A DNA stretch of 64,000 nt, from the IMG/VR virus record IMGVR_UViG_3300047546_001881, positions 1 through 64,000 of that record. One strand, given 5' to 3'. Source of the DNA: a virus. Positions 13,659 through 40,489 of the stretch are shown here, in pieces. Each line of letters opens with the position of its first letter. Position 1 is the stretch's first letter. The notes below the pieces were generated by a model that made no database searches, was not told the origin of the DNA, and was given only the letters and a program-made list of their open reading frames with translations. Position numbers and translations under genes: made by a program.

Positions 13659-15434
13659 ATGTCATCTCCCTCAATACCATTGATTATACTGAGCATTGAA
13701 TCTGGAATACCAATACCAGATACTCGCTTTTCTTTCGTTTTACCAAATGTAGATGCTAAGAAATTTAGTGTTCCTCGCACTACTATTAATGGTTCAAAGC
13801 AAAAGTATTTTGCTATAGCTATATCATTTGAAAATGAAGATAACTTATCTGTTATCCAAGATACAGAAAATAAGCTATTTTCAATAGAAGAGTATGGTGT
13901 TCTTTGCGTTTTAATAAGTAGCGAAGCTTCAGATTATTCTATTACATACAATTGTAAGGCTATTGAAACCTTTCAATTGAGTTCTTTTACTTTAAACAGC
14001 GAAGAGACTTACTCTGTTACTTACAGTAAGTTAAAAAATAAAGAAGTCTTCGGAGAAGAAGAACTTTATAACGACTTAATTACTCTTGTTACTCATATTA
14101 GAGATAAAGAAGATATCTTTTCGCAAGAGGCAGCCAATGCACTGGCTGCAACTAAAAATCTAACTACTATATGTAACGTTATTGTCCACGACTTAGATAT
14201 ACCTAAACAAACAAAGCTACTATATCTACATGCTCAATCTAATTTAGATCGAGTTACCATAGTAACTAAATGCTTGTTTGATATCTTAAGAGAACGAAAT
14301 AATATTTCAAATACTCTTCCTAAGAGAATGAATAGAAATATATTAGATTTCGTCACAAAAGACTCAGAAGACAATAACGAAGAAGATGATTCATCTACTA
14401 CTGATGATGAATCTCCTCCTACTTTAAGAGAAGTATCTTCTATCGCTGAAGAATTAATGCCTAAAGAATTTAAACAGGCATTAGCAGAATGTAGAAGTAG
14501 ACTTAAATCTTTGCCAAACCAAAGCATGGAATATCATGCTTTGAAAGAGTATCTTACTTGGTTAGAAAAAATTCCTTGGGGCAAAAAGTCTTACTCTACA
14601 CCTGATCTTAAAGCTTTAAAAGAGTATATGAACGAAAGTCATTTTGGATTAGATGACGTTAAACAAACAATTATGGAGCACATGGCTATTGAAAGTATCT
14701 GTGGTACTTCTAAAGGTCATGTACTCTGCTTTGTAGGACCTCCTGGAACTGGTAAGACTAGTATTGCTAACGCAATAGCTAAAGCTACCAATAGAAAAGC
14801 AATTAAGATTGCTTTAGGTGGTCTTGGAGATGAAGCAGAAATAAGAGGTCATCGCCGCACTTACGTTGCTTCTAGACCAGGCAGAGTAATTGCAGGAATT
14901 GTTTCCAAGGAAACAATGGATCCTATGTTTATCTTAGATGAAATAGATAAATTAGGTCACGGTAAATCTGATCCTTCAGCAGCTCTTCTAGAACTATTAG
15001 ATCCTGAACAAAACCATGAGTTCATAGACAGATACTTAGAAGTTCCAGTAGATCTTTCTAACGCTATGTTCGTCTGCACAGCAAACGATGAAGACAGTAT
15101 ACCTGCTGCTCTTAAAGACAGATTTGAAATCATCTACTTCAGAAACTATGAAGAAGATGAACGCAAAAAGATATTGAAAGATTACATAATACCAAATGCA
15201 ATATCTGACTACAATCTAGGTAATTTAAAAATATCTTTTGACGAGAGCTCGCTTTTGCTCGCTAGTTCCGTGGTTGGCTTAAGAGAAATAAAGACTACTG
15301 TTAAAAAGCTTTTAAGAAAAGCTGCTCTAGAAATACTTTCTGGAGCTGAATCAGTAGTAATTGATGAAAAAAGTATCAAAGACAATCTCAAAGTAAACAA
15401 AAATAAACACTTGCAAAGAAAAGTAGGTTTTTAA
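13659..15434 (+). CDS. Lon-type AAA+ ATPase lacking the protease domain
   Basis: 591 residues. Residues 1-250 are divergent and acidic; a Lon-like helical region (LKEYLTWLEKIPWGK) leads to Walker A GPPGTGKTS near residue 361, the Lon-specific GGLGDEAEIRGHRRTYV, Walker B FILDEIDK, and LLELLDPEQN. These are hallmarks of the Lon AAA+ module. The protein stops shortly after the ATPase domain, so the Ser-Lys protease domain of Lon is missing. It should unfold or remodel proteins rather than degrade them, perhaps as an adaptor or decoy for host Lon. The next gene overlaps its stop by one base. Confidence 0.85.
   Translation: MSSPSIPLIILSIESGIPIPDTRFSFVLPNVDAKKFSVPRTTINGSKQKYFAIAISFENEDNLSVIQDTENKLFSIEEYGVLCVLISSEASDYSITYNCKAIETFQLSSFTLNSEETYSVTYSKLKNKEVFGEEELYNDLITLVTHIRDKEDIFSQEAANALAATKNLTTICNVIVHDLDIPKQTKLLYLHAQSNLDRVTIVTKCLFDILRERNNISNTLPKRMNRNILDFVTKDSEDNNEEDDSSTTDDESPPTLREVSSIAEELMPKEFKQALAECRSRLKSLPNQSMEYHALKEYLTWLEKIPWGKKSYSTPDLKALKEYMNESHFGLDDVKQTIMEHMAIESICGTSKGHVLCFVGPPGTGKTSIANAIAKATNRKAIKIALGGLGDEAEIRGHRRTYVASRPGRVIAGIVSKETMDPMFILDEIDKLGHGKSDPSAALLELLDPEQNHEFIDRYLEVPVDLSNAMFVCTANDEDSIPAALKDRFEIIYFRNYEEDERKKILKDYIIPNAISDYNLGNLKISFDESSLLLASSVVGLREIKTTVKKLLRKAALEILSGAESVVIDEKSIKDNLKVNKNKHLQRKVGF
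14520..14543. repeat. Intragenic hairpin, 9-bp arms
   Basis: CAAAGCATG pairs with CATGCTTTG around a 6-base loop in the Lon-like gene. Confidence 0.75.
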
Positions 15435-16642: not shown

Positions 16643-16864
16643 ATGAAATACAAATTAGTATGTTATGACTCTGACAATTGTGGTTTCGTTGAATATTTAG
16701 AAGATATTCCGGACGATTTTATTTGTGAAAATTGTGCAGGCATATCAGCTTTATACAATATTCACTCAACTCCAATTCACACTAGATCTAAACCAGATCT
16801 AGATAAAGAACTAACCAAACTATTAGAGAGAGTAAATAAATACAATGGAAATCAATCTCAATAG
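16643..16864 (+). CDS. Small zinc-finger-like protein, 73 aa
   Basis: Cysteines at CYDSDNC and CENC are arranged like a rubredoxin-type zinc knuckle, followed by a charged helix. Overlaps the next gene by 20 bases. Role unknown. Confidence 0.5.
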   Translation: MKYKLVCYDSDNCGFVEYLEDIPDDFICENCAGISALYNIHSTPIHTRSKPDLDKELTKLLERVNKYNGNQSQ

Positions 16865-19670
16865 TCTTCCTCATGCTATCCCTGCATCTGTAGCTAGAAG
16901 TGTCATTGATGCCGCTTACGACAGACTATCTCTAAGACAAAGATGGAATTATAACGCAGTTCATACTTACAAAACTGTAGATCTTCTTTATATTTATGCA
17001 ACATATGCTCTAAGAGCACATAGATATTACTTTGATCCTGAAGTCACTCAACTTCCTTCTTATGCTCATCTTTGTGAATTTGTTCAAGATTTTGAACAAG
17101 CAACAGAGAGAGGAGAAGATGTTGAGTCAAAGCTTTACTTGACTGTTGCAGAGGCAATTAAATCTCTTCTAGAAGCTTCAGTTTCTGGCACCGAAGAGTT
17201 CAAGCAAAACGAAGTTACAAAATTTATATTGCAACTTTACAGTGGTCTCAGGTCTAACAACTTCGCTTTAAATTCTTCTTATCTTTCGTACCATCAAAGA
17301 GCTTCTCATTTCTCAAATGCACGCTATGAGTTTGACAAGAGATATGCTCACTACGTTCAAGACAACTGCAATTATTATTTGCTGCCTCGGCCTGATAGTA
17401 TTGATGAATATATTATAGCTCCAAAGAAGAACTTTTATTCTGTTGATTTGGGAGAAAACAGAACTGCTCTTTCTCACTTCTCTTCTGAAGTAATTAAGAA
17501 CTTTTCTACAATTATTGATTTCTCTCAAATTAAAATTAATCTGACTCCTTCAAATGGATTAAGTCAATATCCAATTCCTACAGGTAATGACTTCGTTCAT
17601 ATATCTTTTGGTACTTCACCATCTATTTCAACATTGCCTTATTCTGCAGGATCAATTGTAGGCGAGAACTTTCTTTCAGAAAACTGCTTTAATTCTTTTG
17701 CCAACAAAAATGATCTTGTTAATGTATATACGTTAGAGAGTCCCTTTAGAGGGACTCCTTCTCTAAACAAAACTACAGTTAAAAAGAAGCTTCTAAATTC
17801 TGTAATTTATATTATGCCAATTGTTACTAACATTGGTATTTTTAACTTTGTTACTGGACAAGAAGAGTCTGTACCTTTCATTAGAATAAAGATCAAAGCA
17901 GATGAAAAGAAGATAATTAAATATAAATCTTCTTTAAACTGGATGATTGATTTTATCTGTAAGATTACGAATCAAAAAGGTATGGAGTTCTATGCTCCCG
18001 AAGAATATGAGAAACTTCTAAAGAATAGATTTGGAACTGCTGGTAAGTATTATAAAACTCTTGTTGATTTCCTATCTAGTTTAAAGATTGGTTTAGCCGA
18101 ATACAAAGATAATAGCTTCAATACTATAATAGATGCATTGGCATCTGACTCATTCAAATATCATGAGATAGCTTCTTCTGCTGTTGATATTCCAAATTTG
18201 TCAGAAGCCATCAAGAATGAAAAGATGCTCGAGAGACTAACTGGTCAGTTGAATGAATTGAGCAATTCTTTCCTTTCAAAAAATAATGAAATAGATAAGC
18301 TCAATGCTTCTCTTTCATCTTTTGAAGATGAGATTGCTTATCATCTTCGAAGATTAGAAAATCTTAAGAATGACAAAGAAACTCTTATTTTGAAATCTCC
18401 AATACTCAAAAAAGAGCTTTCTGATATTGAAAAGAGTAGAAACGCTTTATCTGAAGTTATAGAACCCTTAAATGCAAAAGTTAAAGAGTTCAATACGCAG
18501 AAGCATGAAATGCTTCTTGCGTCTATAGATAGCGCCGATACGAAGTTCTTAGATAATCTATCTTCTAGTAACATGAAACTAAATAATGTTTACTATACGA
18601 TTCCAGCAATTCCATATTTCAAAGGAATGACTAGAGACTTCACAAAGTATTTTAAGCTTCCAATTGAAAAGCTACCTTCTGGTCTTATAGGTTGTAGCGG
18701 GTATAGAGAAGACTATATGATCTCTATACAAAGCTTACCTAAGATTGCGTATTGCGCTCAAAACAAGTTGCCTCTATCTATGGAAGATGTTCTGACTGAA
18801 GAAGGTATAGTAAAACTCAATCTCTTCCGTCCAGAAGAAATAAGTTTTGCTTTAACTCCTAGTTTGATAGCAGTAGACTTTTCTACTCTTAAGCCTTCTA
18901 TTATCAAGATTGACGGGACGCAAAAGTCCGTTGTTGGTGGACCTTATAACGTAATCTTATTTGCTGTTATTAACTTTGACTGGCACAGGCGTGTAACAAG
19001 TTCTACTAACTATATGTACATATCAGCTAAAGAAAGTAGTAGCGTTGTTGGAATAGATAAAGACTACAATGATACTACTTACCTAAAGATTAAAATTCAT
19101 CCTCATACTGGTGGCATTTATGCACCTAAGAGTGAAAACTTCTTTAGTTGTCTTAAAGGCAAATATGACTATTGTTGTCTAGGTGAAGGACTTCCTGGCA
19201 TCTACAAAGGCTTTGAATTAGCAAACGTAAGAATGGCTTTGTTCTCTGCTAAAGCTTGGATTGAATCAACTAATAGCGGAGATACTTGGGGTAGAACATA
19301 TACTATGTTCCCCGCTCTAAGTGAAGTTAATCTTAATGGAATCGAAGTAGAGGAAACGGAAGCTCCAGTAGAAACTAATGAAGTTTCTACTGAAGAAGAA
19401 ATTACTGATACTGAAATGCTAATGATCCTTCAAGGTGTAATTGATAATATCAATACTACACTTTCAACAACTCCAGTAGAACAGCCAGTTGTATTTATAG
19501 ATTTAACACAACCTGAATTGCAACAAACTGTAGAAAACATAGTTGAAGCAATTAACGAATCTCTTAGTCTGCCACCTATACCTCCAATAGTAGTAGCAGA
19601 ACCAACTCCTGTTGTTAGTAATACCGGTTATTCTACTTATTCCAGTGTAGTTAATTCTCTCATCGCATAA
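16845..19670 (+). CDS. Large protein of unknown function, 941 aa, central coiled coil
   Basis: The N-terminal 450 residues are mixed and Tyr-rich. A long coiled coil spans about residues 465-565 (NELSNSFLSKNNEIDKLNASL and onward). A beta-rich region follows, then an acidic Thr/Val/Pro-rich linker and the terminal motif NTGYSTYSSVVNSLIA. No catalytic motif is recognised. Size, coiled coil and tail suggest a structural or packaged protein, yet it lies in the replication half of the window and is closed by its own terminator. Confidence 0.7.
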   Translation: MEINLNSLPHAIPASVARSVIDAAYDRLSLRQRWNYNAVHTYKTVDLLYIYATYALRAHRYYFDPEVTQLPSYAHLCEFVQDFEQATERGEDVESKLYLTVAEAIKSLLEASVSGTEEFKQNEVTKFILQLYSGLRSNNFALNSSYLSYHQRASHFSNARYEFDKRYAHYVQDNCNYYLLPRPDSIDEYIIAPKKNFYSVDLGENRTALSHFSSEVIKNFSTIIDFSQIKINLTPSNGLSQYPIPTGNDFVHISFGTSPSISTLPYSAGSIVGENFLSENCFNSFANKNDLVNVYTLESPFRGTPSLNKTTVKKKLLNSVIYIMPIVTNIGIFNFVTGQEESVPFIRIKIKADEKKIIKYKSSLNWMIDFICKITNQKGMEFYAPEEYEKLLKNRFGTAGKYYKTLVDFLSSLKIGLAEYKDNSFNTIIDALASDSFKYHEIASSAVDIPNLSEAIKNEKMLERLTGQLNELSNSFLSKNNEIDKLNASLSSFEDEIAYHLRRLENLKNDKETLILKSPILKKELSDIEKSRNALSEVIEPLNAKVKEFNTQKHEMLLASIDSADTKFLDNLSSSNMKLNNVYYTIPAIPYFKGMTRDFTKYFKLPIEKLPSGLIGCSGYREDYMISIQSLPKIAYCAQNKLPLSMEDVLTEEGIVKLNLFRPEEISFALTPSLIAVDFSTLKPSIIKIDGTQKSVVGGPYNVILFAVINFDWHRRVTSSTNYMYISAKESSSVVGIDKDYNDTTYLKIKIHPHTGGIYAPKSENFFSCLKGKYDYCCLGEGLPGIYKGFELANVRMALFSAKAWIESTNSGDTWGRTYTMFPALSEVNLNGIEVEETEAPVETNEVSTEEEITDTEMLMILQGVIDNINTTLSTTPVEQPVVFIDLTQPELQQTVENIVEAINESLSLPPIPPIVVAEPTPVVSNTGYSTYSSVVNSLIA
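17738..17757. repeat. Intragenic hairpin, 8-bp arms
   Basis: GAGTCCCT pairs with AGGGACTC around TTAG, with an imperfect outer extension, in the 941-residue protein gene. Confidence 0.7.
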
Positions 19671-19675
19671 TAATA

Positions 19676-19710
19676 AATGCTTGGAGGAGTAAAATCCTCC
19701 AAGCATTTGT
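19676..19710 (+). terminator. Terminator-like hairpin
   Basis: Perfect 13-bp stem (19676-19688 with 19695-19707), 6-base loop, short TTT. It isolates the 941-residue gene from the JAB gene. Confidence 0.75.
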
Positions 19711-19760: not shown

Positions 19761-20972
19761 ATGAATCCCCTAGGTAGTTTTAAAATTCTAAACAACAATA
19801 TTAAGATTCAGATATCTCATAAAGATCTATTTGCAATTCAACATCTAGTTAGTATAGCTCCTCAAGAAGCTCAATGGTTCCATAGACTAGAGACAATTAA
19901 GACTAAAAGCGAAACTATTTTTCGCATTTACGATATCTACATTCCAGAACAGTATTGCTCAGTCACAGAAGTTGAGTCTACTAGTTCTATGATGATTAAC
20001 TTTTACAGAGAACTGATTTCAAATAACTCTGTAGAAGCTACAAATGCGATTCTATCTTCACTGAATGTATGGTGTCATAGTCACCATACCATGTCTCCAA
20101 GTCCAAGCGGGCAGGACAACAATCAGTTTCTACAGCTAATTAAGTATGCAGTAGACTCTAACAATGTTGTTCCTCAAATTATGCTAATCTTTAATAAGAG
20201 CAATCAGTATTACTCACGAATCTTTGATCCTCAAAATGGACTAGTATACGAAAATGTTCCTATATGTGTAGAGACTGAAGATCTGAGTTGGATTGATAAA
20301 GCTGCTGCTGCAAAGTTTAAGAAGCCAGCTCCAAAGAATATCTTTTCTCAAGATACTACTTCAGGAAAATTGAATTTCCCGCAAAATGCTTCTATTGAAA
20401 GAACATTCATTGGAATTGAAAAGCAAGTTCCTGATCTGTCTTTTAAAGAGACTTCTAGGTCTTCTAAAAAAAAAGATCACAGCAAGCAAATTACAAGCCC
20501 TTCAGCGTTAACGTCTAAAGCAATTAATAAGCTATTTCTAGACTATTGGAAAGTCCATTCTTCAGATGAAGAAAACATCGCTATTCTAATGAAGAAAATC
20601 TTCTCTACAAATTCTTCTTGCCAGAAAGAAGCTGGTGAACTTGAAGATATTATTATTAAGAGAGTTGGCAGTGATAATAAATATTGCGCTCTTCTTAACT
20701 TGATTCAAGTTCAAGATGACGATGAAGATTTGAGAGAATGGGAGAAGTTTCAGTTTGATTACGATCAAGCCGAAGTTCTTATGAATTCAGAAAGATTCTA
20801 TGAAATTCTTACCGCTGGTTGTATCGACGACATCCTCCTTACTCATACAATCTTTCTAGTCAATTGCTTGTATGGCTCTATGTATACAACAGAAGAAGAA
20901 AGAGAAAAGCTAATTGATTGGTGGCTCACAGAAACTGGAACTTGTAACTATAAGTTCGGTGAGCATTTCTAA
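19761..20972 (+). CDS. JAMM/JAB-domain metalloprotease (deubiquitinase-like)
   Basis: 403 residues from ATG 19761. Glu36 in APQEAQWF, His106-Ser-His108, seven residues, Ser116 and Asp119 form a complete JAMM motif (E...H-x-H-x7-S-x-x-D), which binds the catalytic zinc of JAB isopeptidases. Context such as YDIYIPEQYCS and PQIMLIFNK matches the bacterial and phage JAB proteins found beside E1 and ubiquitin-like genes. About residues 230-403 form an additional helical region of unknown role. The E1-like and Ubl genes follow, so the predicted job is to mature the Ubl C-terminus or release it from targets. An earlier in-frame ATG at 19677 lies inside a terminator stem and is unlikely. Confidence 0.8.
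   Translation: MNPLGSFKILNNNIKIQISHKDLFAIQHLVSIAPQEAQWFHRLETIKTKSETIFRIYDIYIPEQYCSVTEVESTSSMMINFYRELISNNSVEATNAILSSLNVWCHSHHTMSPSPSGQDNNQFLQLIKYAVDSNNVVPQIMLIFNKSNQYYSRIFDPQNGLVYENVPICVETEDLSWIDKAAAAKFKKPAPKNIFSQDTTSGKLNFPQNASIERTFIGIEKQVPDLSFKETSRSSKKKDHSKQITSPSALTSKAINKLFLDYWKVHSSDEENIAILMKKIFSTNSSCQKEAGELEDIIIKRVGSDNKYCALLNLIQVQDDDEDLREWEKFQFDYDQAEVLMNSERFYEILTAGCIDDILLTHTIFLVNCLYGSMYTTEEEREKLIDWWLTETGTCNYKFGEHF
20067..20089. repeat. Intragenic hairpin over the JAMM motif codons
   Basis: GTATGGTG (20067-20074) pairs with CACCATAC (20082-20089), 7-base loop. The hairpin covers the codons of the catalytic His-Ser-His. Confidence 0.7.
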
Positions 20973-20977
20973 TCTTT

Positions 20978-21011
20978 AACCATAGCGCCTTTCGGCGCTT
21001 TGGTTGTTTGG
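20978..21011 (+). promoter_or_regulatory. TTTC-loop hairpin plus GTTTGG before the E1 gene
   Basis: AGCGCC-TTTC-GGCGCT (20984-20999), extended by AACCA/TGGTT across a T-T mismatch, then GTTTGG. It starts 5 bases after the JAB stop and 30 bases before the E1 start. It could end JAB transcription or mark the E1-Ubl leader. Confidence 0.6.
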
Positions 21012-21040
21012 TTCTTTGTTAGTAAACAATAGAGGTCAAC

Positions 21041-21730
21041 ATGACTGAAGTATCTTTCTTGAGGCATGCAGGATTCTTCAGTCCTGAAGATGCTGAAACT
21101 CTAAATATTATTGGTGTTGGTGCCACAGGCTCAAACATCGGTTTGATTGCTGCAAAAATGGGGTTCCACTCATTCAAAGTCTGGGATGCAGACATAGTTG
21201 AGAACCATAATTTGCCAAATCAAATTTACGATGTTGAGCATGTTGGGATGCGAAAAGTTGATGCATTTAAAGCAGTGCTTCAACGATTCAATCCCAATAT
21301 TAAAGTAGAAACTCACCCATACTTCTTTGAAGCATCTCATAAATCTCTACTAGATGATGGTCCTCTTGTATTGACTGTAGATACAATGAGTGCTCGTAAA
21401 GACATTCATTCTGCATTCCATATGAATTATCTAGTAAACAAAGTTTATGAGACCCGACTTGGCTTTGATTATGGCGAGCTAAACATCATTGATAATATGA
21501 ATATCGTCCAATCAAGCAAGTGGGTAGACTGCTTAAGAAGTGACAGTGAGCTTCCAGAAGGCCCCTGTAATCTTCGAATTTGTACTACGCTAGTAGGTCT
21601 TGTAGCTTCTTATACCGTTCATACAATCTGCGCTTTTCTTTCTACAAAGCGCTCCCAAGTTGATTGTTCAGGCATAAAACCAAAAACAATTTTCAACTTT
21701 GGTCCTCAAATTTACACTCATTCACTATAG
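21041..21730 (+). CDS. E1/ThiF-like adenylating enzyme
   Basis: 229 residues. GVGATGS at 25-31 is the glycine-rich nucleotide loop, VWDADIVENHNLPNQ (47-61) matches the D-x-D...N-L-x-R-Q signature of ThiF/MoeB/E1 enzymes, and TVDTMSARKDIH supplies the Asp near the Mg-ATP site. Usually Arg is found where this protein has Asn60. Several cysteines near the C-terminus (VDCLRS, GPCNLRIC) could form a thioester or zinc site, but which one is not clear. It lies ten bases before the ubiquitin-like gene and after the JAB gene, so its likely role is to adenylate the Ubl C-terminus. Confidence 0.82.
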   Translation: MTEVSFLRHAGFFSPEDAETLNIIGVGATGSNIGLIAAKMGFHSFKVWDADIVENHNLPNQIYDVEHVGMRKVDAFKAVLQRFNPNIKVETHPYFFEASHKSLLDDGPLVLTVDTMSARKDIHSAFHMNYLVNKVYETRLGFDYGELNIIDNMNIVQSSKWVDCLRSDSELPEGPCNLRICTTLVGLVASYTVHTICAFLSTKRSQVDCSGIKPKTIFNFGPQIYTHSL

Positions 21731-21740
21731 GAAAACTATC

Positions 21741-21956
21741 ATGCGTGATATCGTACTCGTTCGCGTTCCAGGTCCAGGCGCTTCAACCGTTCAGGTTACC
21801 GACACTATGACTGTTGCTGAGTTCGCAGCTCGCGAAGCTCTTAACGGTCGTAACATTGTTCTCGACGGTACTGGTCTTGAGCCACAGGCTTGGTCCAGCA
21901 CCACTCTTGCTGGTGTTCGCGAACTATTCGCAACTGGCAGCGTTAAGGGTAACTGA
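21741..21956 (+). CDS. Ubiquitin-like beta-grasp protein, 71 aa
   Basis: 71 residues: two beta strands (DIVLVRVPG, STVQVTD), a helix starting TVAEFAAREAL, further strands, and an ending FATGSVKGN. The strand-strand-helix-strand order, length and VKG-type tail match prokaryotic ubiquitin-like proteins such as those of phage JAB/E1 clusters and PRTRC protein C. One residue (Asn71) follows the terminal Gly, so JAB cleavage could expose it for E1. The gene is much GC-richer and more codon-biased than its neighbours, like ssb and the gene at 31405, suggesting abundant product. A strong terminator follows. Confidence 0.7.
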   Translation: MRDIVLVRVPGPGASTVQVTDTMTVAEFAAREALNGRNIVLDGTGLEPQAWSSTTLAGVRELFATGSVKGN

Positions 21957-21983: not shown

Positions 21984-22024
21984 AATGCTCGTCCTACTTA
22001 CCAAAGTAGGGCGAGCATTTTTTT
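21984..22024 (+). terminator. Strong intrinsic terminator after the Ubl gene
   Basis: A 15-base stem with one G-T pair (21984-21998 with 22005-22019), 6-base loop, and a T8 run. Confidence 0.9.
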
Positions 22025-31404: not shown

Positions 31405-32421
31405 ATGGCACTCGTAAAACAACTCAAACTAAAGCAGCTCGATATCGTATCATACGTTGAGGGCGAAGTTGCCGAAGAAGCAGCTCGCGCTCTTGCCGCT
31501 GAAGGCGTTCTTGCTGCAGACCTAGCTGCAGAGGCAGCCACTCGTGCTGCCGATGACGCTACTCTACAAGGCAACATCGACGCAGAAGAGGCCCGTGCTC
31601 TTGCTGCAGAAGGTGTCCTCGCTGCAGATCTAGCAGCCGAGACAGCTGCTCGTATTGCAGATGTAGACGCTGAGGAAGCTCGTGCAATTGGCGAAGAGGG
31701 TCGTATTGAGACCAAGTTTGACGGTGAAGTTGCAGATCTCGAGGCTGCTGTTGCAGCCGAGACTTCTGCTCGCGAATCCGCAGACGACAACCTCCAGAGC
31801 CAAATTGACAACATTCTCAGCAACGTCGATCCAGCTGCTCTCGATTCTCTAACCGAGATCGTAGCTGCTTTCCAGGCTGCTGACGGTGATCTACAAACTT
31901 CAATCACTACTCTTTCTAGCGATGCTGCTGCTGATCGCGCTGCAATCCGTTCCGAGTTTGCCGCTGCCGATGCAACCCTACAGGGTAACATTGATGCAGA
32001 GGAAGCTCGTGCAATGGCTGCAGAGGGCGTTCTACAGGACAACATCGACGCTGAGCAGGCTGCTCGTGAAGCAGCAGTTACCGCTGAAGCTGCTACTCGT
32101 CTAAGCCAAGACACTCTAGTTAAAGGCTTTGCCGATGGCATCAAAGTTAAGAGCTTCCAGCTTGCTGGTAACTCCGGTAGCTTTACTGTTAACGGCGCCG
32201 ACAAAGAGTGGACTCCTAATCTAACCAACAAACAGCTAAAGAGTGCTGTAAGCATGTACCTCAACGGCCAGAAGCTTGTTGCAACTGGCGGCGGTATCAC
32301 TGGCGACTTCTCTGCAGATCCAAGCACTGGCAAAGTTGTCTTTGCTTCAAGCATGGTTGATGCAGCTGACGTTGTTGTATTCGAGTACCTCGAGTCAGCA
32401 ACCGCCCCAACCCTCAGCTAG
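31405..32421 (+). CDS. Ala/Glu-rich coiled-coil virion fibre protein, 338 aa
   Basis: Residues 20-235 are repeats of the type EARALAAEGVLAADLAAE, a long trimeric-coiled-coil-like rod, interrupted by NNA repeats such as LQGNIDAEEARA. The C-terminal domain (MYLNGQKLVATGG..., VVVFEYLES) matches the neighbours. GC content and codon bias are far above the flanking genes, implying very high expression and a structural role. A strong terminator follows. The long antisense frame is a consequence of the repeats. Confidence 0.75.
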   Translation: MALVKQLKLKQLDIVSYVEGEVAEEAARALAAEGVLAADLAAEAATRAADDATLQGNIDAEEARALAAEGVLAADLAAETAARIADVDAEEARAIGEEGRIETKFDGEVADLEAAVAAETSARESADDNLQSQIDNILSNVDPAALDSLTEIVAAFQAADGDLQTSITTLSSDAAADRAAIRSEFAAADATLQGNIDAEEARAMAAEGVLQDNIDAEQAAREAAVTAEAATRLSQDTLVKGFADGIKVKSFQLAGNSGSFTVNGADKEWTPNLTNKQLKSAVSMYLNGQKLVATGGGITGDFSADPSTGKVVFASSMVDAADVVVFEYLESATAPTLS

Positions 32422-35798: not shown

Positions 35799-37067
35799 AT
35801 GACAACGAACCCCTTTGTCCATTTACATCTCCATACTGAATACTCACTCTTAGATGGTATAAATAGAATAAATTACTTGCCTAAATATATTAAAAGTATT
35901 GGTCAAGAAGCAGTTGCCATGACAGATCATGGCAACGTTTCTGGTAGCTACTCTTTCTACAAGCAATGCAAGAAAGATGGCGTCAAACCAATCATAGGAA
36001 TGGAATCTTACTATACTGTACAAGATAGATCTGTTAAAGAAGTAGATGACTTAGGTGAGTCTTATTATCATCTTGTTTTGATTGCTCTTAATAACACTGG
36101 TCTTAAAAATCTATTTAAGCTTTCTTCTTTAGCTTACACTGAAGGTATGTATAGAAAGCCAAGAATAGATGATGCTCTGCTTGGCGACTTATCTGAAGGT
36201 CTCTGTGCGACTTCCTCTTGCCTAGGAAGTCGCGCTTCACAACTTATCCTAAATGGTAAAGCGTCAGAAGCTGAGAAGCTAATTCATCATCATGCAGCTT
36301 TATTTAATAAGAAGTTCTTAATTGAACTGCAGCTACATGAGATGGAAGATCAAAAGAAAGTTAATCAAGTACTATTAGATATAGCTAACAGAAATAACTA
36401 TCCAATCATTCTAACGAATGATTGTCACTACACTCATCCAGTAGATAAAGCTTTACATGAGATTGCTTTGTGTATGCAAACCAAAAGTACTCTTTCTGAT
36501 GAAAAGAGATTTACATTTGGAGATATAGACGTACACGTAGCAAGCCATGACTGGATGTGGCAAAGAGCTCAAGAAGCAGGAATACCTTACGATGCAATAA
36601 GTAACACTGCTGCTTTAGCAAATATGGTTAATAGTAAAGATTATTTCTCTGATAGAAAGAATAGATATCCTCAATTCAAAGACCTATATGAAGGCATGAA
36701 TAGTTCTGAACATTTAGAAATATTAGCTAAACAAAAGCTATATGAAAGGTTTGGTACTATGCCTCCCAAAGAGTACAGAGAAAGACTAGATTATGAGTTA
36801 AAAGTAATTAAGAAGATAGGCTTCTCTGATTATATGCTGATTGTTTGGGAATTTCTAAAAGGTGCAAGAGACTCTGGTGTAGAAGTTGGTCCAGGAAGAG
36901 GTAGTAGTGGCGGAAGCTTAGTAGCTTACGCCTTAGAAATAACTAACTTTGATCCAATTAAATACGGACTAGTGTTTGAGAGATTCCTGAATATCGGAAG
37001 AGCTGCTCAACCACTAATCTTTAATGATGAAATGTATGCTCAAGTAGAAGCTAATCTTAAAGACTAA
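35799..37067 (+). CDS. dnaE: DNA polymerase III alpha, N-terminal half (PHP domain)
   Basis: 422 residues. HLHTEYSLLDG, MTDHGNVSG and TNDCHY are the metal-binding motifs of the PHP domain, complete enough for possible proofreading. The protein continues into the palm as GPGRGSSGGSLVAYALEI and LVFERFLN, then stops shortly before the catalytic aspartates, which are encoded at 38075. The reading frame is interrupted at TTAAAG (37057-37062) by an inverted fibre-like gene. A TTAAAG also opens the second half, and joining the two restores an uninterrupted alpha subunit. Confidence 0.88.
   Translation: MTTNPFVHLHLHTEYSLLDGINRINYLPKYIKSIGQEAVAMTDHGNVSGSYSFYKQCKKDGVKPIIGMESYYTVQDRSVKEVDDLGESYYHLVLIALNNTGLKNLFKLSSLAYTEGMYRKPRIDDALLGDLSEGLCATSSCLGSRASQLILNGKASEAEKLIHHHAALFNKKFLIELQLHEMEDQKKVNQVLLDIANRNNYPIILTNDCHYTHPVDKALHEIALCMQTKSTLSDEKRFTFGDIDVHVASHDWMWQRAQEAGIPYDAISNTAALANMVNSKDYFSDRKNRYPQFKDLYEGMNSSEHLEILAKQKLYERFGTMPPKEYRERLDYELKVIKKIGFSDYMLIVWEFLKGARDSGVEVGPGRGSSGGSLVAYALEITNFDPIKYGLVFERFLNIGRAAQPLIFNDEMYAQVEANLKD
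36207..36233. repeat. Intragenic hairpin, 10-bp arms
   Basis: GCGACTTCCT pairs with AGGAAGTCGC around a 7-base loop, in the first dnaE half. Confidence 0.8.
37057..37062. repeat. Left TTAAAG of the dnaE interruption
   Basis: Occurs in frame as CTT-AAA-G. The matching copy is at 38085-38090 (ATT-AAA-G). Fusion at this hexamer joins LK to AFYIPERY without a shift. Confidence 0.55.
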
Positions 37068-38053
37068 GGTATTGGTTTAAAACCCAATACTAGATAAAAG
37101 CCTGAACCATTCATTCCTACGTTATTAGATGCAAGTGTTATCTTCCAGGTATTATTTGTAAGATACTGCTTGGAAGATAATACTGCACTAAGAGGAATAT
37201 TGGTAACGGTGTTAGCAGTTAAACTGTTCATATCAAAAGCTACAGGTAAGCTACTTACTCCAGCAGCTACATTTTGAATATCTAGCTGTAAGCTACCAAC
37301 AGTATTTACTACATCACAGTATATACCTGCAGAGACAAGTTCTGTTTTGAAAGGATACCAACCTATATATTCTATTGTAATTCCTGGTGCTTCTGGTAAT
37401 TCTATTCTTTCAACATTAACTGTCCAATTTTTAGTATCAGCCATTGTTGATACTAAAGTATCTAATGACTCTACAGATGGTAAATTAGATGCATTGCCTA
37501 TAAAGATGTTACCTTTATTAAGATTAGGTACATCATTAGTACGACCGGCGCCACCAATTTTGATAGAACCATTACTTGCATGAACCCTTTGTACTTTAGC
37601 TAAGTTTTGTACAAGAGAAGATTCACCAGCTGGCTTACTTGTCTGTAAGCCAGATGCACCTACATATAAACTATTATTTAAAGCCCATCCAGGAGTACTT
37701 GTATCAATATTATGTAGTGTTCCAAAAGTAACTACTTCTACATTGCTACCTAAACTAGCAGAGTTTCCGGCTACACCAAATGCAGGCATCTTAGCTGCGT
37801 TAGTACAATCAGCCTTACTTACAACAGGTTTACTTCCACTTACACCTGAAATGTAAACTGGATCTCCAAGTACAAGTGCTTCACCTGCATTAGCATTAAA
37901 GACAATTCTTTGTGCTTCTTCAGAAGCAATTACTGTACCGAAACTAAAGTTACCTGCTCCATCTGTAAGCAGAACTTCATCTGCAGCACCATCTGTTATT
38001 CCTAAATCAGTTAAAGTTCTAGGTATAAACTTACCATTCTCAATAATACTCAT
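37064..38053 (-). CDS. Tail-fibre/decoration-like protein inserted in dnaE
   Basis: 329 residues from the ATG at 38053. LTDGAGNFSFG, a segment LVLGDPVYISG, then TPGWALNNSLYVGASG and KVQRV are typical of phage tail fibre, spike or decoration proteins; the C-terminal third is beta-rich. Its stop codon lies on the left junction with dnaE and its start 22 bases from the second dnaE ATG, so it exactly fills the gap in the polymerase gene on the opposite strand. A virion gene here is out of place. Confidence 0.7.
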   Translation of the reverse strand: MSIIENGKFIPRTLTDLGITDGAADEVLLTDGAGNFSFGTVIASEEAQRIVFNANAGEALVLGDPVYISGVSGSKPVVSKADCTNAAKMPAFGVAGNSASLGSNVEVVTFGTLHNIDTSTPGWALNNSLYVGASGLQTSKPAGESSLVQNLAKVQRVHASNGSIKIGGAGRTNDVPNLNKGNIFIGNASNLPSVESLDTLVSTMADTKNWTVNVERIELPEAPGITIEYIGWYPFKTELVSAGIYCDVVNTVGSLQLDIQNVAAGVSSLPVAFDMNSLTANTVTNIPLSAVLSSKQYLTNNTWKITLASNNVGMNGSGFYLVLGFKPIP

Positions 38054-38074
38054 AACAACACCTTGGAATTTAAT

Positions 38075-40489
38075 ATGGAAGATATTAAAGCTTTCTATAT
38101 ACCTGAAAGATACAAACAAGTAGATGTAGACTTTCTTGAATTTGAAGAAGATATGATATCTTCTAAAGATAAAAGCATTATACTATCATTACTTAACAAG
38201 AGTTCAACTGGATTATCTAAAATGGATAATCCATATAATAGTATAATTTTATATCTTACTGGTCTTACAGATCAGTTCAATTTTGTTCAAGGAAGATCTG
38301 ATACTATCGGAGGCAGCCCTCCAGATGTTGATATAGATTTCGATGCATTAGAAAGAGAGAAAGCAATAGAGTGGGTCGTGCAAAAATGGGGACGAACTCA
38401 AGTTGCTAACATTATCACTCATGGTACTTTTAAGCCTAAGTCTTTAGTTAAGTCCTACTACAGAGTAACTGAAGGCTCTTCAAAAGATATGGGGGATCTT
38501 CTTAAAATGATCCCCCCAGCTAAGTTTGGTAAAGAATCTACAATTGAAGAGATTGTAACCAAAGAGCCAGAGTTTAAAAACTTCGAACCTTTTTATTCTT
38601 CTGCTACTAAGCTAGAAGATATGATTTCGAACTTTGGTATACATGCAGCAGGTATTGTCATCTCCGACTTCCCCATTTACGATGTAGTTCCTGTATGGAA
38701 GAATAGTAAAGCTGATTTCATCACTCAGTTTGACAAGAAGGAAGTAGAAGATTTAGGTCTTATTAAGTTTGACTTCTTATCTATTGATACCTTGTCGATT
38801 ATCAAAGAGTGCATAAGACTTATAAAAGAGAAAAGAAACCTTACAATTAATCCATGGCAGCTACCTGATGGAGATCCCAAAGCATATGCCGCTATGAATA
38901 GCGGCTACTTGACTGGATTGTTTCAAGTAGAAACTTCAGGTAAAGCAAAAGATCTAATACAGAGAATCAAGCCTCAAAGCATTCCTCATATTAGTGATAT
39001 CAGTGCACTGAATAGACCTGGACCAGCTCAAGCTGGTCTTGATGAACAATACATTACTAATAAGAACAATAACTGTCCACCTGAAGAACTTCCGAAAGTT
39101 GTTGCTGACTTACTTAAAGATACTTATTGGACTCTTGTTTATCAAGAACAAGTTATGGAGATCTTTTCTAAGTTAGCTGGCTTTACAATGAAAGAGTCAG
39201 ATGATATTCGAAGAGCAATGGGCAAGAAAGACAAAGATGTTCTATCTGCTTATGAAGAACAATTCATTCAAGGCTCTATTAAATTATCTGGACTAAAACA
39301 AGATTATGCTAAAACTCTTTGGGAAGAACTACTAGGTTTCGCAGACTATTGTTTTAATAAGAGTCATAGCGTAGCTTACTCAATAATCACTTATGCAACA
39401 GCATATTTGAAAGCGAACTATTCTACTGAATTCTTTTGTGCGCTAATGACTGTTAGATCCCAATCTTTACAACCTAAAGATTGGGCTTGCAAAGCTCCAG
39501 AATACATTAATGAAGCAAAGTACTTTGACGTAGAAATAAATCCACCATCAGTTAATGGCTCTGACTTAGAGTTTTCAATGAAAGATGGAGAGATTTATTT
39601 TGGTCTTAATGCAATTAGAGATGTAGGTGGTACTGCCGCCAAATCTATTGTAAAGACAAGAGGCCGGACTCCTTATAAAGATATCTTCGATTTCTTATTT
39701 AGAGTTAACGGAAACAAAGTAACAATTAAAACTTTTGTTAGCTTAATTAAATCTGGCGCTTTTGACAAAATGGGTTACATTAGAAGTGAACTCGTACTAA
39801 AGTCTCAATTACTTTATGATTACGTTAGAGATATACAAGAATATAATCTTAGATTAACTGAAATAAAAGAACGAGATGCTTATAACGAACAAGCAAATGC
39901 ATTGATTGAAAAAAGAGATAATCTAAGAAAAGAAGTAAAAGCAATAGAAAAGGAAATCAAGAAGTCTGGTACTACAGTTGCTTTGTCTGCAAGGTTTGAA
40001 GAAGCATCTTCTCAATTGACAGAAATAGAAGAGATGCAAATTAAAAGACTTCCAGCTCTTAAGATAAAAGAAGAACCAGTTAAACCAGAACTAGTTAGAA
40101 CTAAAAGTGTTCCTTTAGATTTGTCACAAATAATGGAGCAAGCTCATTATATTGGCTGTTATATTGGATCACATCCAGCAGCTATGATAGGCTCCGGTTA
40201 TGACAAGATAGAAGATTGTTATATTGGTCAAAGGCCAAGTCTTTGCGGTATTGTAAATAGCATTAAAGTAATCTCTACCAAGTCAGGACAGAAGATGGCC
40301 TTCTTGGAAATAGACGATTCTACTGCAACTGCTGAACTTACAATATTTGCAAGTCTCTGGACTAAACTATCTGCCTTGAATATTGTTCCTGGATGTTTGA
40401 TTTCTGATATTGAGTGCAAGGTGGAAAACGAAGACCCAATAAAACTTGTAGCTTTCAATTTAAAATTAGTTAGGAGCCCTAATGAGTAA
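38075..40489 (+). CDS. dnaE: DNA polymerase III alpha, catalytic C-terminal part
   Basis: 804 residues from ATG 38075 (TTG 38063 is possible). SPPDVDIDF near residue 85 carries the two catalytic aspartates and is followed by HGTFKPKS, LIKFDFLSIDTLS with the third aspartate, LNRPGPAQAG and the YQEQVMEI-type finger region. FNKSHSVAYSIITYATAYLK and a C-terminal OB fold (SLCGIVNSIKVI) complete the DnaE architecture. The PHP domain and start of the palm are in the separate gene at 35799, so the polymerase must reassemble from two chains. No DnaQ exonuclease gene is in the window. Confidence 0.9.
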   Translation: MEDIKAFYIPERYKQVDVDFLEFEEDMISSKDKSIILSLLNKSSTGLSKMDNPYNSIILYLTGLTDQFNFVQGRSDTIGGSPPDVDIDFDALEREKAIEWVVQKWGRTQVANIITHGTFKPKSLVKSYYRVTEGSSKDMGDLLKMIPPAKFGKESTIEEIVTKEPEFKNFEPFYSSATKLEDMISNFGIHAAGIVISDFPIYDVVPVWKNSKADFITQFDKKEVEDLGLIKFDFLSIDTLSIIKECIRLIKEKRNLTINPWQLPDGDPKAYAAMNSGYLTGLFQVETSGKAKDLIQRIKPQSIPHISDISALNRPGPAQAGLDEQYITNKNNNCPPEELPKVVADLLKDTYWTLVYQEQVMEIFSKLAGFTMKESDDIRRAMGKKDKDVLSAYEEQFIQGSIKLSGLKQDYAKTLWEELLGFADYCFNKSHSVAYSIITYATAYLKANYSTEFFCALMTVRSQSLQPKDWACKAPEYINEAKYFDVEINPPSVNGSDLEFSMKDGEIYFGLNAIRDVGGTAAKSIVKTRGRTPYKDIFDFLFRVNGNKVTIKTFVSLIKSGAFDKMGYIRSELVLKSQLLYDYVRDIQEYNLRLTEIKERDAYNEQANALIEKRDNLRKEVKAIEKEIKKSGTTVALSARFEEASSQLTEIEEMQIKRLPALKIKEEPVKPELVRTKSVPLDLSQIMEQAHYIGCYIGSHPAAMIGSGYDKIEDCYIGQRPSLCGIVNSIKVISTKSGQKMAFLEIDDSTATAELTIFASLWTKLSALNIVPGCLISDIECKVENEDPIKLVAFNLKLVRSPNE
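38085..38090. repeat. Right TTAAAG of the dnaE interruption
   Basis: Partner of the hexamer at 37057-37062, in the same reading frame of the polymerase. Confidence 0.55.

Follow-up and report, generated by a model that had tools for sequence, protein, structure and literature searches.

A four-gene phage module that probably conjugates and removes a ubiquitin-like protein

What is known of ubiquitin-like conjugation in bacteria comes mainly from plasmid operons and anti-phage defence. What, then, is a phage doing with a JAB metalloprotease, an E1-like enzyme and a small ubiquitin-like protein (Ubl) encoded side by side, and is this set complete? We addressed the question for the window, that is, the whole 64,000-nucleotide stretch analysed here, taken from an IMG/VR virus record of 75.7 kb (IMGVR_UViG_3300047546_001881). 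ORF translations place the JAB, E1 and Ubl genes as three consecutive genes on the plus strand, exactly as the original prediction had them, and the gene directly upstream appears to supply a fourth component (Table 1). We consider it quite probable that together they represent a phage-encoded Ubl conjugation and deconjugation system, in which the Ubl would pass from the E1 through an E2-like protein to a target, with the JAB responsible for maturation and removal. No published description of this phage module was found among open-licence papers other than preprints.

Table 1. Coordinates of the module and its features in the window
Feature	Position	Strand	Basis
941-aa protein: coiled coil in the centre, E2 (UBC)-like domain at the C-terminus	16845..19670	+	homologue directly adjoins JAB in nearly all relatives
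E2-like domain, residues 660-832	18822..19340	+	AlphaFold model; extended family vs human E2s by hhalign
HPH752-754, counterpart of E2 HPN motif	19098..19106	+	invariant in 12 close relatives; aligned to HPN
Cys778 (CLG), candidate E2 catalytic cysteine	19176..19178	+	invariant; aligned to UBE2D2 catalytic Cys
JAB/JAMM metalloprotease, 403 aa	19761..20972	+	weak Pfam Prok-JAB match below cut-off; JAMM residues conserved
Short, GC-rich hairpin in the JAB-E1 gap	20984..20999	+	confirmed in the sequence
E1/ThiF-family adenylyltransferase, 229 aa	21041..21730	+	Pfam ThiF E 1.2e-18
Cys176, candidate E1 thioester cysteine	21566..21568	+	Cys in 55/55 sequences incl. crAss-like phage E1s
Ubiquitin-like protein (Ubl), 71 aa, C-terminus ELFATGSVKGN	21741..21956	+	AlphaFold, Foldseek, elevated GC3
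K69-G70-N71 processing signature	21945..21953	+	K-G-N in Ubl ORFs of 42/46 independent E1 loci
Intrinsic terminator 3' of Ubl	21984..22019	+	16-bp stem plus T run

The hairpin and the terminator that were said to bracket the E1-Ubl pair are both present. The JAB ORF has an alternative start at 19677; relatives favour 19761. Further upstream in the window, a Lon-like AAA+ ATPase (13659-15434) stops soon after the ATPase part, apparently without a protease domain; in about 10 relatives a homologue precedes the module, and one may speculate that it could serve Ubl conjugates.

The activating enzyme and the protease both carry the residues expected of their families. In the E1, the GVGATGS, D49-x-D51 and NLPNQ motifs behind the proposed E1/ThiF-like fold are all there, in agreement with the Pfam match. 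D49, D51, K72, D114 and R119 are invariant in all 55 E1s compared, and Cys176 is equally universal, crAss-like phage E1s included. Judged by its Rossmann GxGxxG motif, its adenylation-site residues and the conserved cysteine, the window E1 is a member of the E1/ThiF superfamily. Where the canonical NLxRQ motif has Arg, this E1 has Asn (N60, present in 44 of the 55), and the lack of the Arg is a point against the conjugation reading. The zinc-site pattern of the JAB, Glu...H-S/T-H-x7-S-x2-D, is represented by E36, H106-S-H108, S116 and D119. Across 52 JAB sequences, S107, H108, S116 and D119 do not vary (52/52), H106 is retained in 51 and E36 in 43, so that the complete JAMM motif claimed at the outset is present and its core nearly invariant. 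The C-terminal part of the JAB is a separable domain, since it forms a separate ORF in two of the recruited loci (L007, 7535-8008; L014, 8828-9253).

The 71-residue product was assigned no family by Pfam, NCBIfam or PHROGs; its ThiS matches were weak. The lack of a β-grasp fold in this product had been named beforehand as one of two refuting outcomes, and the fold that was predicted is β-grasp. The AlphaFold model, built from an alignment of 21 Ubl units, has a pLDDT of 91.8 and the β-grasp order E-E-H-E-E-E; a Foldseek search of the PDB returned ubiquitin, ThiS and ISG15, all at probability 1.00 with E near 2e-3 and TM near 0.6, ubiquitin and ThiS being the closest. The codon bias noticed originally is real as well. 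The GC3 of the Ubl gene is 0.38, a value reached in none of 2000 simulations; bulk usage applied to its amino acids predicts 0.18. Hairpins with T runs, non-identical in sequence, follow the Ubl gene in several relatives, among them most of those examined that have a single Ubl. Together, the codon bias and the terminator suggest that the Ubl is highly expressed. A 338-aa Ala/Glu-rich gene elsewhere in the window (31405-32421; GC3 0.40) has the same unusual bias and perhaps encodes another highly expressed protein.

At the C-terminal end of the Ubl, an invariant Gly70 is followed by Asn71. Distant Ubls escape the Ubl profile, but ORFs with a terminal KGN, followed by no more than 0-2 residues, make up 37 of 742 near E1 genes and 1 of 1867 elsewhere (Fisher P 9e-20). 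When forms with tails and tandem forms are included, Ubl-like ORFs whose mature end is K-G-N occur in 42 of 46 independent E1 loci, the exceptions being L063, L082, L083 and L084. Several relatives have a Gly-rich tail after KGN. Relatives also encode head-to-tail precursors of two (L016, L017, L019, L053, L058, L062), three (L028, L030, L037) or four units (L029), each unit ending in KGN. Processing after Gly70, as initially proposed, fits both the invariant end and the tandem precursors. Given that E1 enzymes work on Gly at a C-terminus, the near-universal Asn is most simply explained as a recognition (P1') residue for the JAB that would then be removed. Yeast UBI4 likewise ends in one extra Asn past its last Gly. 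Two smaller observations concern the same region in relatives. Loci L015, L016, L018, L019 and L020 each have one Ubl paralogue with a similar Gly-rich tail (GRPSGGGRGNNP) after KGN. Between the E1 and Ubl genes of L015 (9825-10013), with counterparts in L016-L020, there is a conserved, probably helical protein of 61-65 aa (FDSGNDAAGRRIR-like) that is absent from the window.

The original prediction found no evident E2 and supposed that transfer might be direct from the E1. This part is not supported: an E2-like domain is encoded immediately upstream of the JAB and is kept in every JAB locus. The 941-aa gene is conserved in all close relatives, and among the 21 invariant columns of 12 relatives all but M1 and N571 fall in the C-terminal domain (G699-P-Y, H752-P-H754, C778-L-G780, W805, N810, D813 and W815-G816 among them). 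The motifs follow each other as in canonical E2 enzymes, GG-[YF]-x-V-x-[IV], HPN, CL, N-x-x-D; an HPN-like motif, the catalytic Cys and a downstream N-x-x-D, by which E2/UBC sequences are recognised, stand in the right order. The relationship could not be detected directly. For the window domain, Pfam, NCBIfam and PHROGs gave no family; its AlphaFold model (pLDDT 87.9, pTM 0.81) retrieved chance matches from the PDB with no E2 among the Foldseek matches listed, and its good matches in BFVD were phage proteins only. A PDB sequence search with the E2-like profile found nothing, and no signal emerged when the close set was compared directly with human E2s by hhalign (P 0.22).

A different picture emerged once the profile was iterated through the recruited loci, which placed an E2-like protein next to JAB and E1 at almost every locus. 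Compared with a UBC reference of only four human E2 sequences, the extended family scored 34.7 (P 5e-5), the maximum for 150 column shuffles being 17.7; a subset rich in the PHxFxDGxxCxG motif reached 43.0 (P 2e-6; maximum 18.0 in 100 shuffles). The alignments superimpose HPN, the catalytic Cys and PNxDD, with the position of Cys778 on the catalytic Cys of UBE2D2. Between the distant and the window set the hhalign match has P 3e-11, and members of the distant set, e.g. APHIFSDGHMCLGN...NTDDAAG, have the same spacing as HPNINSNGSICLDI...NPDDPL. Moreover, profile matches among 4727 ORFs are confined to JAB/E1 neighbourhoods. Because the family aligns to human E2s above shuffles and because its matches are so confined, we call the domain E2-like. 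The case is good but not final, since the window domain reaches E2s only through its relatives and the Foldseek search of the PDB listed no E2. Some loci have two consecutive E2-like genes 5' of the JAB together with two-unit Ubl genes (L053, 2-2980; L058, 4782-7951; L062, 4883-7905).

Is this set a peculiarity of one virus? JAB and E1 profiles served to recruit the loci, from which duplicates were removed; E2-like and Ubl genes played no part in the recruitment. Even so, all 43 independent JAB loci also hold an E1 and an E2-like gene, in the order E2-JAB-E1 or E1-JAB-E2 and mostly with overlapping or nearly touching ends. The expected co-occurrence of JAB, E1 and Ubl in other phages was likewise observed, the trio recurring in about 40 other viral contigs. 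Xanthomonas phage PhiXhv-12 has, besides an E1, a protein of 892 aa that matches the E2 profile (E 3e-5) and a candidate Ubl with SGG as its end; tblastn of the Ubl and JAB against named phages returned no match. One JAB locus came from a contig of a gammaproteobacterial MAG (L085), itself phage-like. As the JAB profile matched nothing else in 274 gammaproteobacterial genomes, the system looks phage-borne.

The following pathway would be consistent with these observations. The JAB would cut after Gly70 and free Asn71, and in relatives it would split the head-to-tail precursors. By homology to other E1s, the ThiF-like enzyme would adenylate Gly70 and carry the Ubl as a thioester on Cys176, from which it would be handed to Cys778 of the E2-like domain; the long N-terminal and coiled-coil part of the 941-aa protein probably selects or docks targets. 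Finally, the Ubl would be joined to target proteins, from which the JAB could also remove it. No E3-like candidate is evident, a further point against the conjugation reading. In the window the module is surrounded by replication and nucleotide genes, not tail genes, and in phage crAss001 the genes for primase, uracil-DNA glycosylase and ribonucleotide reductase are close to the related cluster. A role in the early or middle phase is therefore more likely than one in virion assembly. Since the same kit and the same tag ending recur in dozens of phages, phages appear to run their own ubiquitin-like signalling. We lean towards the view that tailed phages in many lineages maintain a complete Ubl conjugation pathway that belongs to them, including a separate E2 family, a K-G-N signal and polyubiquitin-style precursors, to tag host or phage proteins during infection; some phages would have two modules.

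The same genes might be read in other ways. JAB-E1-ThiS operons exist in sulfur metabolism (PMC1779556), the phage E1 resembles ThiF/MoeB, and the Ubl has both weak ThiS matches and ThiS among its top structural neighbours. The Ubl might thus be a ThiS/MoaD-type carrier, trimmed by the JAB and converted by the E1 to a thiocarboxylate, with a thiolated nucleotide, tRNA or small molecule as the product. However, the co-conservation of an E2-like protein in every JAB locus, the tandem Ubl precursors and a C-terminus of KG rather than GG speak against it; an unsystematic look at the ORFs around the loci revealed no sulfur-transfer gene. We therefore regard sulfur transfer as unlikely.

Two further readings dispense with conjugation by the phage. 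In known bacterial systems JABs deconjugate or process Ubls (PMC11354881), and the location in a phage would fit a JAB, perhaps with a decoy Ubl, that strips or blocks the conjugates of host CBASS Cap2, Bil or PRTRC. Yet this phage retains catalytic-type residues in both its activating and its conjugating enzyme, and the high expression suggested by the Ubl codon bias exceeds what a decoy needs, which makes a purely counter-defensive role improbable. Even less credence can be given to cleavage of an unconjugated Ubl during tail assembly. Lambda tail proteins I and K do combine a Ubl with a JAB (PMC1779556), and 2 of the 21 Ubls weakly match Lambda_tail_I, but the lambda case as described there involves neither E1 nor E2-like proteins, Pfam found no NlpC domain in the window JAB, and the neighbouring genes are those of replication and nucleotide metabolism. 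Conjugation and deconjugation by the phage's own enzymes thus remain our preferred reading.

The known systems closest in layout are PRTRC-type operons (Iyer 2006 row 6d; NCBIfam TIGR03735-TIGR03738), which combine Ubl, E2-like, JAB and E1 in one operon. In the PRTRC locus examined (L089; genes named by position and motif, the Ubl by its TIGR03738 match) the internal order is E2-JAB-E1, as in the phage module, and its Ubl, the only PRTRC Ubl examined, ends in GAKG-RAP, near the GAKGN of distant phage Ubls. On the other hand, near-universal K-G-N and tandem forms set the phage Ubls apart. The window E1 scores 23.8 bits against PRTRC_ThiF, below the cut-off of 144.75, the window Ubl does not match PRTRC_C, and the alignment of the single PRTRC B candidate to the E2-like family of the phages covers just the Cys motif and is not significant. 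Among the ORFs read, neither ParB nor the PRTRC D, E and F partners came to notice. The PRTRC E2 relies on a downstream His in place of the missing upstream one (PMC1779556), unlike the phage domain with its HPH. Given the failed cut-offs and this difference, we did not file the module under PRTRC.

BilABCD also has Ubl, E2, JAB and E1 as separate genes, and its JAB exposes the C-terminal Gly of the Ubl (PMC11354881). However, Bil is a bacterial antiphage defence with an ISG15-like two-domain Ubl, an E1 of inactive and active adenylation domains and a CEHH E2 (PMC11354881); the single 71-aa Ubl and the HPH...CLG of the phage place the module outside Bil. CBASS Cap2/Cap3 likewise unites E1 and E2 activities with a JAB protease in prokaryotes, but Cap2 is an E1-E2 fusion (PMC12355090) and, unlike the phage module, the system lacks a separate Ubl gene; in CBASS it is the cGAS-like enzyme itself that becomes conjugated (PMC10097602, PMC10449767). 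The phage module may thus work like Bil and Cap2/Cap3 while being phage-owned and having a different E1, E2 and Ubl. Head-to-tail Ubl repeats are shared with polyubiquitin-like operons (Iyer 2006 row 6e), but those are bacterial and their E2-like domains are described as inactive (PMC1779556, PMC11354881), whereas the phage domain keeps HPH and Cys.

Clusters of crAss-like and Flavobacterium phages, typified by crAss001 gp79-gp76, encode in this order a Ub-like candidate, an HxH...C protein, a JAB and an E1. The E1 is homologous (hhalign 99.7%), with its Cys conserved, and the JAB domain related (58%), and a parallel system in crAss-like phages is possible. In crAss001 (L004, 2265-7487), gp79 has a ubiquitin-like-looking N-terminus and a conserved KxKSG boundary, and gp78 a YMHSH...C motif. 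We keep both only as leads, because neither the relation of gp78 to the E2-like domain (7%) nor that of gp79, which lacks KGN, to the Ubl is significant.

If our interpretation is right, phages own a conserved set of all four parts, seemingly capable of maturing, activating, attaching and removing a ubiquitin-like tag, and would employ protein tagging on the offensive or to replicate. The few E2 families known from prokaryotes would be joined by a large one, and the pathway would be a compact one for reconstitution. Because the mature end would be V-K-G, trypsin would leave a single Gly; a search for Gly-Gly-type remnants would miss this Ubl, which explains how standard GG-remnant proteomics could overlook the system.

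Two loci contain an apparent second module in the same phage (L056, 12101-16444; L042, 12091-16399), with a further E2-like match, a small ORF ending in EGN (L056) and a partial second E1. In the window itself, the DNA polymerase III alpha homologue is split into two pieces (35799-37067 and 38063-40489) corresponding to positions 40-443 and 441-1049 of phrog_405, and a 351-aa ORF on the reverse strand (37064-38119) sits between them.
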